A DNA stretch of 57,120 nucleotides from Sphaerochaeta sp. (GTDB lineage: Bacteria > Spirochaetota > Spirochaetia > Sphaerochaetales > Sphaerochaetaceae), in NCBI GenBank assembly GCA_004294855.1, contig SHOI01000002.1, positions 9,850-66,969 of the forward strand. The letters are read 5' to 3'. Within the stretch, counting starts at the first letter, position 1. Every line of letters begins with the position of its first letter. Positions 20,751 to 26,518 of the stretch are shown one piece after another. Below the pieces are notes generated by a model. It saw nothing but the letters and a program-made list of their open reading frames with translations. It was not told the DNA's origin and made no database searches. The position numbers and the translations under genes were made by a program.

Positions 20751-21218
20751 TCAGAGCACGTATGGAATTCGGTAGTTTGCCGATTGATAGACTACGAATG
20801 TTTCGACTTCCAGAACCTCGCTCATCTTGGAAAGCTCTTCTTTGAAAAAATCGAGCAGACTCAGATCCTCTTCTTCGCTGAGAACCAGTTGGACGATAAG
20901 ATCGTAACGCCCCGTCACCACAACGGAAGAGATGACACCGCGCAACGTGCAAAACTCCTTTGCTTTTCGTTCCAGATCGAGCGTTGACAGTTTCACTCCC
21001 ATGAAGACGACTTGGAGACCGGGAATCATTTCGGAGCGGATCAGACCGGAGATCTGGAGGACTTCTTCATCAATCAGCTTGTTGACGCGCGAACGAACGG
21101 TGTTCTCGGTGATGCTCAACTCATCGGCGATTGCACTGAAGGGCTTCCGTCCGTCGATGAGTTGCCGAAGAATCGCTTTGTTCGTCTCATCCATTTTTAT
21201 TTTCATAAGCTTATCCAT
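20751..21218 (-). CDS. Lrp/AsnC family transcriptional regulator
   Basis: ETNKAILRQLIDGRKPFSAIADELSITENTVRSRVNKLIDEEVLQISGLI plus RAM-like C-terminal domain. Confidence 0.9.
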   Translation of the reverse strand: MDKLMKIKMDETNKAILRQLIDGRKPFSAIADELSITENTVRSRVNKLIDEEVLQISGLIRSEMIPGLQVVFMGVKLSTLDLERKAKEFCTLRGVISSVVVTGRYDLIVQLVLSEEEDLSLLDFFKEELSKMSEVLEVETFVVYQSANYRIPYVL

Positions 21219-22293
21219 GACGCGTCTCAAACTCACGCATAAATTGGGCGAGCGCTTCAACGGCGGCAGGCTCAAGCGAGTTGTACAGGCTTGCCCGCAG
21301 TCCGCCCACCGAACGGTGTCCTTTCAGGCCGAGCATCCCCTCTTTCTTCGATTCCTTGATGAACAGCTCCTCCAATTCCTCGCCGGGAAGGCGGAACACC
21401 ACGTTCATCGTCGAGCGATAGCTCGGGTCGACGGGGCTGCGATAGAAGGAAGAGGAGTCGATCACATCATAGATGAGGCTGCTCTTTGTTTCAGCCCGCT
21501 TGGCCATTCCCTCGATTCCGCCGTGGCTCTCGATCCATTTAAGTACAAGGTTCACCACCCAGATGGCGAAGACCGGCGGGGTATTCGCCAGCCCCTTGTT
21601 CTTTCCATGGAGAGCGTAATCAAGATAGGACGGAAGATTGGGATTCTGCTTTTCCAGGAGTTCTTTCTTATAGAGCACGAAGGCGGCTCCGGCCGGACCA
21701 AGGTTCTTTTGAACTCCGCCGAAAATCATTCCAAATTGATTAACGTCGAAAGGACGGCTGAAGATGTCGCTGGACATATCGGCAATCAGGGGAACCGAAT
21801 CGGTTTTGGGAAACTCTTTATATTCAATACCCCCGATCGTCTCGTTGGAACAAAGATAGAGATAGCTCAAACTCGGATCGACCCTAAGAGTCTCCATCTT
21901 CGGAAGAGTCGTATAGCCGCTCTCTTTCCCGTCCCACACGACATCGATATCTCCAAGTTTCTTTGCGTCGATCAGCGCTTTTTCCGACCACGATCCGCTG
22001 TTGATATACCCCGCCTTTCCACCCTGAGGCAGAAAGTTTATCGGTACCATGGAGAATTGCAGGGTTGCTCCACCTCCGAGAAAGTAGAAATCGAACTCAT
22101 CACCCGCCCCGATGAGGCGTTTGAAGAGCGCGAGCGTTTCATCGTACATCTCTTCAAACATCCCGCCGCGGTGGCTGGTTTCAATCATCGACAGTCCGTT
22201 GCCCTTGTAGTCGACCAACTCCTCCTGTACCTGCTTCAGCACCTCAAGCGGCAATACACTCGGGCCGGCAAAAAAGTTTTTCTTGCGCTCCAT
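21211..22293 (-). CDS. serC: Phosphoserine aminotransferase
   Basis: KNFFAGPSVLPLEVLKQVQEEL, GNGLSMIETSHRG, FGGVQKNLGPAG. Confidence 0.95.
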   Translation of the reverse strand: MERKKNFFAGPSVLPLEVLKQVQEELVDYKGNGLSMIETSHRGGMFEEMYDETLALFKRLIGAGDEFDFYFLGGGATLQFSMVPINFLPQGGKAGYINSGSWSEKALIDAKKLGDIDVVWDGKESGYTTLPKMETLRVDPSLSYLYLCSNETIGGIEYKEFPKTDSVPLIADMSSDIFSRPFDVNQFGMIFGGVQKNLGPAGAAFVLYKKELLEKQNPNLPSYLDYALHGKNKGLANTPPVFAIWVVNLVLKWIESHGGIEGMAKRAETKSSLIYDVIDSSSFYRSPVDPSYRSTMNVVFRLPGEELEELFIKESKKEGMLGLKGHRSVGGLRASLYNSLEPAAVEALAQFMREFETRHG

Positions 22294-23177
22294 CAGATAA
22301 TTCCTCCTTCCAGCAGTTCTTTGATGATATTGAATGTTTCCTGACCGATTCGTCCCAGATTCTCCACGCTGTTCGCCCCGACATGAGGAGTGAAGGTAAC
22401 CCGCTCGCAATCAAGAAGCGGATAATCGCCCGCCGGGGGATCGGTTGGGTAGACATCGGTGCAGTACCAGGATACCGAACCGCCTTTCAAGGCTTTGGCC
22501 ATATAGTCGGCATCCACGCAGAGCGCCCGTCCGGTGTTGATGACCACCGGCTTTTTCTTGCAGTGGCTGAGCAGCTCTTCGTTGACAAGGTTCGTCGTTT
22601 CATTGGTCAGCGGAAGGTGCAGAGAGATATAATCGGCGTTCTCAACCGCGATTTCGGCACTCGGAAGCATCTTTGCAAACTGATGGGTAGTTACATACTT
22701 ATCGTATGCAACGACGTTCATTCCGAATGCCTGAGCCCGCTCGGCGACTTTGCAGGCGATATTCCCCATACCGAGGAGGCAGAGGGTTTTCCCGTACAGC
22801 TCGGTGCGTTTGAGATTCTTCAGCCAATTACCCCCTTTCATCCCCTGGTGGTATTCGATCAGGTTGCAGGGAACACTGATCATCAACGCCATCGTCAATT
22901 CGGCCACGGCGATCGAGGAGGAGGTTGGAGTATTTCGTACCACGATGCCTTTACTGAGCGCATATTCGGTGTCGATGTTGTCCACACCCACTCCGCCGCG
23001 GATGATCACCTTCAGGTTCGGGGCGCCGTCGATGTACTCTTTGGTACATTTCGTTTTCGAGCGGACCAGAACGACATTCGCTTCGGAAAGACGATTGTGG
23101 TCGGTGGTGACTTCTCCAAAAACGGAGAGCCTGCCGGGCAGGGAAGCATCGAAGGCGTCCGCGACAAGTATCAGCAT
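22293..23177 (-). CDS. serA: D-3-phosphoglycerate dehydrogenase family
   Basis: IIRGGVGVDNIDTEYALSKGIVVRNTPTSSSIAVAELT, LLGMGNIACKVAERAQAFGMNVVAYD; coupled to serC. Confidence 0.9.
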   Translation of the reverse strand: MLILVADAFDASLPGRLSVFGEVTTDHNRLSEANVVLVRSKTKCTKEYIDGAPNLKVIIRGGVGVDNIDTEYALSKGIVVRNTPTSSSIAVAELTMALMISVPCNLIEYHQGMKGGNWLKNLKRTELYGKTLCLLGMGNIACKVAERAQAFGMNVVAYDKYVTTHQFAKMLPSAEIAVENADYISLHLPLTNETTNLVNEELLSHCKKKPVVINTGRALCVDADYMAKALKGGSVSWYCTDVYPTDPPAGDYPLLDCERVTFTPHVGANSVENLGRIGQETFNIIKELLEGGII

Positions 23178-23226
23178 AAGAAACACTCCTTACAGGATAT
23201 TTCCGGCACGATCCGGATTGGATGCC

Positions 23227-23386: not shown

Positions 23387-23596
23387 TCAGTAGCCTTTGG
23401 AGCTGTATTGCTTCCGGGCTTTTTTCATCTGCTTGCGAGCAAGTGCTTTCTTTTTCCTGTTCAGGAGGGTGGAGGGCTTTTCAAAGTATTCACGACGTTT
23501 GTATTCGCGAATGATCCCCTCTTTCTCGACCATGCGCTTAAATCGCTTGATTGATTTTTCGAGCGGCTCGTTTTCGTCTACTCGGACGTATGCCAT
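23387..23596 (-). CDS. rpsU: 30S ribosomal protein S21
   Basis: [42 protein letters not shown]... Confidence 0.97.
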
Positions 23597-23687: not shown

Positions 23688-24260
23688 TCACCGGATATCG
23701 GAACTGAACCTCACCACCATGTGAACCACCGCTTCCTTGCCGCTTTGATTGGAAATCGAATGTTCGATGTCGGCGTGGTACATCAGGAAGTCTCCCGGTT
23801 TGAGGTGAGCGGAGTTCTCCCCTGCCCGGACATCGACCGAGCCTTTGAAGACCGTCAGATACTCCTGGCTACCGGCGACATGAGGCTCGCTTGCAAGGGT
23901 CGAGTTCGGCTCGAAGGTAAGGAGGTACATCTCCAGTTCTTCCACGGAAGACAGGGGGCTGAGGATTTTGATCGTGATCCCGTCCTTCCGCTTCTCGAGT
24001 TTCGATCCGTCATCGGAAGCGGGATTGAGCGAAAACACCCTTGTCGGTTCATCAACTCCTTCCAAAAGGTCGTTCAATTCGACATTCAGCCCTTTGGCGA
24101 TCTTCCATACCGTGGCAACGGTGGGATTCACCTTGTCGCTTTCGATTTGACTGAGCATCGCTTTGGAAACGCCGCTTCGCTCACTCAAGACATTGAGGGT
24201 AAGCTTGCGAGCCGTTCGAATTCGCTGAATGTTTTTACCGATCATCGGAGGGGTTTGCAT
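23688..24260 (-). CDS. XRE-family regulator with C-terminal cupin domain
   Basis: IGKNIQRIRTARKLTLNVLSERSGVSKAMLSQIESDKVNPTVATVWKIAKGL plus cupin LKPGDFLMYHADIEHSISN. Confidence 0.95.
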   Translation of the reverse strand: MQTPPMIGKNIQRIRTARKLTLNVLSERSGVSKAMLSQIESDKVNPTVATVWKIAKGLNVELNDLLEGVDEPTRVFSLNPASDDGSKLEKRKDGITIKILSPLSSVEELEMYLLTFEPNSTLASEPHVAGSQEYLTVFKGSVDVRAGENSAHLKPGDFLMYHADIEHSISNQSGKEAVVHMVVRFSSDIR

Positions 24261-24277
24261 CGGGAACTCCTTATAAA

Positions 24278-24293
24278 GTTTGACATACTAAAC
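24278..24293. promoter_or_regulatory. Putative operator 1, GTTTGACATACTAAAC
   Basis: Inverted repeat GTTT-N8-AAAC, parallel to operator 2; contains the -35 TTGACA. Confidence 0.6.
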
Positions 24294-24308
24294 CCTGTTC
24301 AATATACT
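24280..24308 (+). promoter_or_regulatory. Near-consensus promoter for tdh-kbl
   Basis: TTGACA - 17 bp - TATACT. Confidence 0.75.
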
Positions 24309-24312
24309 GAAC
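24297..24312. promoter_or_regulatory. Putative operator 2, GTTCAATATACTGAAC
   Basis: Inverted repeat GTTCA-N6-TGAAC; contains the -10 TATACT. Confidence 0.6.
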
Positions 24313-24374
24313 CTGCTTACAGATTGTAAAAGCACGCTCCGTTCCTGTCAAGAAACAAGCGGAAGGGAGGAGAA

Positions 24375-25328
24375 ATGAAGCGCATATTGATCATCGGTGC
24401 ACTCGGTCAGCTCGGCAGTGAAATCGCTCTCGAATGTCGCCGTCGCTATGGAACCGACAACGTCGTATTGGCTGATATCAGGAGCGACGTGAATCGCCCT
24501 CTGATTGAAGATGGTCCGTTTTATCTTCTTGATGCCCGCGACGGGAAACGGATCGACGAGGTCGTCCGCACCCACCGGATCGATACGATCTACCATTTGG
24601 CAGCCCTGCTCTCCGCCCGTGCCGAACAGGACCCCATGGAAGCGTGGAATCTCAATATCAACGGCCTGATCGCCGTGCTGGAGGTCGCCCGACAGAGGTC
24701 GTGCGCCGTCTTTGTTCCCTCTTCGATCGGCGCGTTCGGGCCGACGACCCCAAAAAAATTCACCCCTCAGGATACAATTCAACGCCCTACTTCGATCTAC
24801 GGTGTCACCAAGGTGACCGGCGAACTGCTTTGCGACTATTACCACCACCGCTGGGATGTCGATACCCGGGGAATCCGCTTTCCGGGGATCATCAGCAGCT
24901 TGACGCCCCCGGGAGGCGGAACCACCGATTATGCGGTGGAGATCTACTACGAAGCGATCCGGAATCAGCACTATACCTGCTTCCTCCGCGGGGATACCTA
25001 CCTTGATATGATCTACATGCCGGATGCCGTGGAAGCTGCAATCAAGATCATGGAGGCGGATCCGGCGAGGCTTCGCCACCGGAATGCGTTCAATATCGCC
25101 GCGATGAGCTTCTGTCCCGAGGAGCAGGCGGCGTATATCCGTACCCACATTCCAACCTTCACGATCAGCTATGCGATCGATCCGGTTCGCCAGGCGATCG
25201 CCGATTCCTGGCCGGATTATATGGAAGACTATGCGGCTCGGGTCGAATGGGATTTCAAACCCCGCTACACCCTCGCCTCGATGACGGAAGACATGATTGA
25301 GAAAATAAGGGAACGGGAGGGACTATGA
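24375..25328 (+). CDS. L-threonine 3-dehydrogenase, SDR/epimerase-type
   Basis: RILIIGALGQLGSEIALECRRRYG; SIYGVTKVTGELLCDYYHHR (YxxxK); coupled to kbl. Confidence 0.9.
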   Translation: MKRILIIGALGQLGSEIALECRRRYGTDNVVLADIRSDVNRPLIEDGPFYLLDARDGKRIDEVVRTHRIDTIYHLAALLSARAEQDPMEAWNLNINGLIAVLEVARQRSCAVFVPSSIGAFGPTTPKKFTPQDTIQRPTSIYGVTKVTGELLCDYYHHRWDVDTRGIRFPGIISSLTPPGGGTTDYAVEIYYEAIRNQHYTCFLRGDTYLDMIYMPDAVEAAIKIMEADPARLRHRNAFNIAAMSFCPEEQAAYIRTHIPTFTISYAIDPVRQAIADSWPDYMEDYAARVEWDFKPRYTLASMTEDMIEKIREREGL

Positions 25329-26518
25329 ACAGCCGATTGGAACGGGAACTGACCGAATTCCTCACTTCATTGAAGGAAGAAGGGCTCTATAAGGAGGAGC
25401 GGATCATCGAGAGCTCCCAAGGCAGGAAGATCCTTGTCGGCGGCAAAACGGTTCTGAACTTCTGTGCAAACAACTACCTTGGCCTCAGCGATGACAAACG
25501 AGTCATCCGAGCGGCAGCGGACGCGATGGAGACCTTCGGCTTCGGCCTTTCGTCGGTCCGATTCATCTGCGGAACCCAAACGCTCCACAAGCAGCTTGAA
25601 CAAGCGATTTCATCGTTTCTTCGAACCGAGGACACGATCCTCTTTTCATCATGCTACGATGCGAACGCCGCGCTGTTTGAACCGCTTCTGGGGGAAGAGG
25701 ATGCCGTCATCAGCGATGAATTGAACCACGCCTCGATCATCGACGGAATCCGGCTTTCAAAAGCCGGGCGCTTCCGCTACAAGCACAGCGATATGAACGC
25801 CCTTGAACAGGCGCTCAAAGCGAGCGCTTCCGCTCGCCGCCGGTTGATCATTACCGACGGGGTCTTTTCAATGGATGGCGATGTTGCAAAGCTGAAGGAG
25901 ATCTGCGCCCTGGCGGAGACTTACGACGCTCTTGTCGCAGTCGATGACAGCCATGCAACCGGATATCTCGGCGAAACAGGCCGGGGAAGCGTTGAATTAT
26001 GCGGTGTTGAAGGAAAGGTCGATATTATCACCACGACGTTCGGCAAAGCGTGCGGAGGGGCAAGCGGCGGATGCATCAGCGGACGAAAGCCGCTCATCGA
26101 CCTGTATCGCCAGCGGGCCCGCCCCTATCTCTTCTCCAACACCCTGGCTCCGGCGATCTGCGGAGGAACGCTGAAGGTGCTCTCCATTCTCCAGGAAGAT
26201 CACTCCTTGCGCAAGCGAACTCTGGCAAACGCCGATCACTTCAGGAACTTGTTGAAAACGGCGGGGTTCGATCTGATCGACGCGACTACGGCCATTGTTG
26301 CCGTCATGGTGTATAAAGAGGCGAAAGCCGTTGAATTTGCCGAGAAGCTGCTGAATGAAGGAATCTATGTGATCGGCTTTTCCTATCCGGTAGTTCCCAA
26401 GGGAAAAGCACGCATCCGCGTTCAACTGTCGGCATCCCATACGACCGAGGATATCGAACGAGCCGCGAAGGCATTTATCTCGGTGGGAAAAACGATAGGG
26501 ATCATCACAGAGCTTTAG
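25325..26518 (+). CDS. kbl: Glycine C-acetyltransferase / 2-amino-3-ketobutyrate CoA ligase
   Basis: NFCANNYLGLSDDKRVIRAA, ISDELNHASIIDGIRL, DDSHATGYLGETGRGS, TTFGKACGGASGG. Confidence 0.95.
   Translation: MNSRLERELTEFLTSLKEEGLYKEERIIESSQGRKILVGGKTVLNFCANNYLGLSDDKRVIRAAADAMETFGFGLSSVRFICGTQTLHKQLEQAISSFLRTEDTILFSSCYDANAALFEPLLGEEDAVISDELNHASIIDGIRLSKAGRFRYKHSDMNALEQALKASASARRRLIITDGVFSMDGDVAKLKEICALAETYDALVAVDDSHATGYLGETGRGSVELCGVEGKVDIITTTFGKACGGASGGCISGRKPLIDLYRQRARPYLFSNTLAPAICGGTLKVLSILQEDHSLRKRTLANADHFRNLLKTAGFDLIDATTAIVAVMVYKEAKAVEFAEKLLNEGIYVIGFSYPVVPKGKARIRVQLSASHTTEDIERAAKAFISVGKTIGIITEL

Follow-up and report, generated by a model that had tools for sequence, protein, structure and literature searches.

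Two tandem palindromes overlying the predicted promoter of the threonine-degradation genes tdh and kbl are very probably the off-switch belonging to the adjacent XRE-cupin regulator, since the family conserves the pair beside a single regulator gene. We hold with considerable confidence that this protein is a local autorepressor acting on the tandem operators, where it would block both tdh-kbl and its own gene (xre) until a metabolite of the pathway releases it. The window, that is the whole stretch of 57,120 nucleotides analyzed, belongs to contig C198 of genome G000, a Sphaerochaeta-like spirochaete assembly.

The locus and its predicted facing promoters

The xre gene (23688–24260, minus strand) encodes a transcription regulator of 190 residues, with an HTH domain at approximately residues 7–70 and a cupin at approximately 95–185. 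Pfam returns HTH_3 (4.4e-14) and Cupin_2 (5.4e-8), and this architecture of about 190 residues is that of XRE-cupin regulators, as had been proposed for the divergent gene in the initial annotation. The gene is divergent from tdh (24375–25328, plus strand) and kbl (25325–26518, plus strand), with the operators in between. The tdh product is predicted to be an SDR-type L-threonine 3-dehydrogenase from its full-length matches to the solved TDH enzymes 7OL1 (PDB, E = 3.9e-120), 7CGV and 2YY7 (all E < 1e-100), and kbl, which overlaps tdh by 4 bp, encodes a glycine C-acetyltransferase (NCBIfam PRK06939, 598 bits, cut-off 460). Downstream of xre the neighbor in the window is a small ribosomal S21-like gene (23400–23595, minus strand); in most relatives (e.g. 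L053:1-2312, L008, L120 and L126) a transporter gene, whose sequence looks MFS-like, and prfA come after xre, and in genus g18 xre is flanked by an exonuclease I-like gene and prfA. The minus strand at 20751–23186 carries an Lrp/AsnC-type regulator gene beside genes resembling serC and serA; this group lies 1 kb from the threonine-to-glycine operon, and serine and glycine supply genes are thus clustered in the window.

The predicted sigma-70 promoter of tdh-kbl (24280–24308, plus strand) has 11 of 12 consensus matches and a predicted start at about 24315, and the alignment shows it to be conserved. Its TTGACA hexamer (24280–24285) lies inside operator O1 (GTTTGACATACTAAAC, 24278–24293, plus strand), and its TATACT hexamer (24303–24308), after a spacer of 17 bp, inside operator O2 (GTTCAATATACTGAAC, 24297–24312, plus strand). 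Both operators are 16-mers with a center-to-center distance of 19 bp; O1 is an imperfect palindrome and 7 of the 8 dyad positions match in O2. Two similar 16-bp imperfect palindromes at this distance, enclosing a near-consensus promoter, had been described beforehand; the palindromes are correct to the base and the promoter prediction stands. Within the window, exact matches to GTTYRAYATACTRAAC are limited to the places of O1 and O2, of which O2 is the stronger (matrix score of 24.9 bits vs. 10.2 bits for O1). Part of the O1 conservation is the −35 itself, which counts against the operator reading.

A predicted xre promoter (24323–24351, minus strand; TTGACA at 24351–24346, 17 bp, TACAAT at 24328–24323; 11 of 12 matches) faces that of tdh, and the two predicted starts, at about 24316 for xre and 24315 for tdh, coincide. 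The alignment shows both of its hexamers to be kept across the family while the spacer varies. Predicted promoters facing each other within one RNA polymerase footprint are present in 45 of 52 regions, compared with 0.17% of dinucleotide shuffles, and no facing xre promoter was recognized in the distant loci L054, L056, L059, L062 and L069. In most of the family 10–14 bp separate the two −10 boxes, so that, judging from footprint size, two polymerases could not sit there together. Relative to the predicted xre transcript, O2 falls at approximately +4 to +19 and O1 at approximately +23 to +38; given these positions and the facing promoters, one bound pair should control both genes. The repressor-type layout claimed at first thus stands for tdh, with candidate operators over −35 and −10 that are conserved next to the XRE gene, whereas the facing xre promoter and the lineage-dependent register of the operators had been missed. 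An inverted repeat over the xre −10, TTACA-gat-TGTAA (24317–24329), is possibly the remnant of a third operator; such an operator occupies the same place in L134 and L137, which supports the remnant weakly in the window's genome.

Conservation of the operators with the regulator gene

The 35-bp twin pattern was searched in the whole genomes of 90 relatives, with the reversed pattern as a control. Thirty-five of them contain it, each a single time, and all 35 encode an XRE orthologue; the 46 genomes that lack the XRE gene have no twin, and the control gave no match in the 90 genomes. In the genus, both XRE and the twin are present in 24 of 26 genomes, the other two being incomplete assemblies in which neither was found. 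Across eight genomes, the window's own and those of seven near-complete relatives, the single-site pattern searched with zero mismatch matches nowhere but here. A wide regulon was rejected: with one mismatch, single 16-mer sites are about as frequent as the reversed control in complete relatives, the exceptions being tdh and, in some, asd. One twin per genome and a scan near background besides tdh, and possibly asd, describe a local regulon of one or few targets. Three genomes (G057, G063 and G068, two of them incomplete) keep an XRE orthologue with no tdh detected, so the XRE-cupin protein may have another role, which counts against the proposed one. In the other spirochaete clade, described below (L057, L058, L063 and L068), the xre/tdh pair and the operator are retained, and kbl often does not follow tdh.

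A score matrix, built from operator sites that include some of those it scored and used with a threshold of 7.3 bits (the 99% shuffle level), places an operator above threshold in all 52 distinct xre/tdh intergenic regions of the Spirochaetota sampled, and the objection that the repeats might be missing from orthologous regions falls away. No operator is seen at the homologous tdh of 41 Bacteroidota loci, none of which has xre alongside; no score there exceeds 1.8 bits. The position of O2 is conserved in every region of the window's family, and the alignment shows near-invariant GTT and AAC ends outside the hexamers, together with variable linker, flanks and neighboring spacer bases. It could be argued that the similarity of the repeats reflects promoter consensus plus chance, as the hexamers make up 12 of the 35 bp and fall inside the repeats. 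Yet the conservation of the GTT/AAC ends and of the dyad symmetry outside the hexamers, the single twin per genome with zero controls, and the operators that other clades carry off the tdh promoter render this hardly credible; chance or pure promoter consensus was rejected on the alignment, the twin counts in the 90 genomes and the 52-region matrix scan.

The tdh and xre genes are non-adjacent in four genomes (G038, G050, G042 and G074). The separated tdh loci (L142, L144, L145 and L146) retain the operator pair at tdh and lack the xre promoter, of which only the −35 (TGTCAAGG) seems left in L144. The operators therefore appear tied to the control of tdh and the facing promoter to xre. These loci also bear on the idea that a different regulator binds O1 and O2, with the XRE-cupin protein an unrelated neighbor, for which the Lrp/AsnC-type protein encoded at 20751–21275, 3 kb away and beside serA-serC, would be a candidate. 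We consider this improbable, because operator presence tracks the XRE gene genome by genome, the operators persist when xre is unlinked, and the half-site resembles that of the Escherichia coli puu locus. The XRE-cupin protein is favored as the binder by the occurrence of the twin once per genome in XRE-positive carriers (35/35, against 0/46 XRE-negative genomes and a control of 0), by the GTT/AAC ends, by the operators remaining at tdh when xre is elsewhere and missing at Bacteroidota tdh, and by the recognition-helix segment GVSKAMLSQIE, which hardly varies among 59 distinct orthologues. To these are added the matrix matches at E. coli puu and, by analogy, the XRE-cupin local repressors of Pseudomonas (PMC7901475).

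Operator register across lineages and a site at asd

Counting against this assignment, the primary operator of XRE-positive lineages outside the window's family is often elsewhere relative to tdh. Among the 32 regions of the window's family, the start of the main operator is without exception 6 bp ahead of the tdh −10; an insertion in L125 has displaced the facing promoter. For a separate clade (17 tdh entries, SH-aLRT 97), 10 regions have a main operator that starts 4 bp before the xre −10 and is often a perfect or near-perfect palindrome, e.g. GTTCACTATAGTGAAC; several regions of this clade have a weaker copy approximately 20 bp off, on the tdh −10. The strong operator in other spirochaetes is thus one register (about 20 bp) over, on the xre −10. 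L134 and L137, which belong to another family, contain three and four operators, respectively, with a spacing of 19–20 bp that cover both layouts, and L138, a member of the separate clade, has a register like that of the window's family.

The register also informs the question whether the XRE-cupin protein might be a dual regulator, or an activator under some conditions, in the manner of Rco of pLS20; it would then repress tdh, stimulate xre and make the locus bistable through the facing promoters. That plasmid provides a precedent, as its opposed promoters overlap and their master regulator is encoded divergently (PMC4207663), and the facing arrangement is conserved here. However, both operators lie downstream of the predicted xre start (O2 at about +4 to +19, O1 at about +23 to +38), which suits blocking and not activation, and the xre −10 itself is covered by the strong operator in other spirochaetes, so that dual regulation seems rather unlikely. 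The simplest reading of the change in register would be an ancestral operator array trimmed differently by lineage, on a tree that is quick and has several long branches. Sphaerochaetaceae would then have kept O1 and O2 (tdh −35 and −10), and the separate clade O2 and O3 (tdh −10 and xre −10). The main brake would have passed from the promoter of the enzyme genes to that of the regulator, the half-site and the recognition helix being unchanged.

The site scan of genus g18 and of near-complete relatives also matches the region upstream of asd, which encodes aspartate-semialdehyde dehydrogenase. In the genus, an operator-like site (e.g. GTTCACTATGATGAAC or GTTCACTATCTTGAAC) of 11–20 bits is present in 19 of 21 asd upstream regions, where its place is constant while its flanks have diverged; 1.8% of shuffles score above 7.3 bits. 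It is perfect in G042 and G074 (GTTTAATATAATAAAC), weak and degenerate in the window's own genome (L181, GGCTAATATCATGAAC, 6.3 bits), and absent from the seven asd regions examined in other families and genera, which include genomes both with XRE and lacking it. Most members of the genus have the operator-like site (GTTCACTATSWTGAAM) about 153 bp before the asd start codon (L172, also L162-L179 and L184). Directly downstream of the operator-like site, a conserved TGTTA...TAACA array (TGTTAATATAATAACATTTTGTTA) is seen in, e.g., L171, L187 and L188; related repeats also occur in genomes without the XRE gene, and the array looks like the operator array of some other asd regulator. The asd site hints weakly at a threonine-family signal and is kept apart from our main finding. 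If the protein represses tdh and high threonine releases it, one may speculate that the site would help asd expression at low threonine. A joint reading, in which an ancestral array with spacing of about 20 bp over facing promoters was retained in a lineage-specific manner and asd is also controlled in the genus, can be offered only tentatively. The same protein would act at asd from upstream of the predicted asd promoter, and threonine breakdown and threonine-family synthesis would consequently be controlled in opposite directions.

Proposed control and relation to known systems

We infer the following control by the XRE-cupin protein. Its dimers on O1 and O2 would cover the −35 and −10 of tdh-kbl and exclude RNA polymerase, and the same bound pair, at the start of the xre transcript, would repress xre as well (autorepression). 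Even with no repressor bound, the promoters of the two genes would still exclude each other. A small molecule of the pathway would bind the cupin pocket and free the operators, whereupon threonine would be converted to glycine and acetyl-CoA. As to this ligand, threonine, glycine or an intermediate can be guessed; we favor threonine, which the target degrades and in whose synthesis asd takes part. Cupin residues H127, E133 and H167 are invariant over 34 orthologues and could hold a metal. The best relative of known structure, by sequence and fold, is the Vibrio cholerae XRE-cupin protein 1Y9Q (28% identity), which is reported to have D-methionine bound in the cupin, i.e. a cupin able to hold an amino acid (PMC7901475). 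Superposition of the whole-protein AlphaFold model on full-length relatives is poor (TM about 0.5), for which a domain hinge is the probable reason.

No threonine-dehydrogenase XRE-cupin regulon, nor this spirochaete regulon, is described in the literature searched. From its sequence features, the circuit is most likely a well-conserved and apparently undescribed case of the already known local control by XRE-cupin proteins, in which the facing promoters and the lineage-dependent operator register deserve attention. It supplies a concrete candidate regulator and operator for amino-acid breakdown in spirochaetes, as well as a natural promoter series under one regulator family in which operators shift relative to two facing promoters, useful for studying how circuits are rewired without change in recognition helix or binding site. 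If true, a threonine-responsive XRE-cupin protein would be a further sensor in a family for which few ligands are known.

The most similar named family by NCBIfam is PuuR of E. coli, which governs putrescine use and is yet not an orthologue; PuuR proper was rejected (55 bits vs. a cut-off of 211). In the E. coli puu region the two best matrix matches, GTAAAATATAATGACC and GGAAAATATAATGAAC, lie at puuA/puuD, where PuuR has its locus; they contain TATAATGAAC or TATAATGACC, but lack the left half of the palindrome. What we take to be the PuuR box was compared with the E. coli puu sequence only. Facing or overlapping divergent promoters with shared operators are also found in the E. coli bio operon. 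The rco/Pc region of plasmid pLS20 combines overlapping opposed promoters and a divergent master regulator in a bistable switch (PMC4207663). As in the arrangement predicted here, the opposed promoters exclude each other and are governed from one region by a protein that one of the genes encodes; pLS20 further has looping and self-activation, of which there is no sign in our case. The XRE-cupin proteins of Pseudomonas (PsdR, PauR, ErfA and others) are local repressors that bind core-promoter palindromes adjoining their own gene, and both PuuR and PauR are responsive to metabolites of the pathway (PMC7901475). A palindromic candidate operator in the core promoter adjacent to its own gene is likewise found for the XRE-cupin protein of the window. 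Domain architecture, core-promoter palindromes, few targets and a role in small-molecule metabolism are thus common to both, whereas the spirochaete system belongs to another pathway and phylum and combines paired tandem operators with facing promoters.
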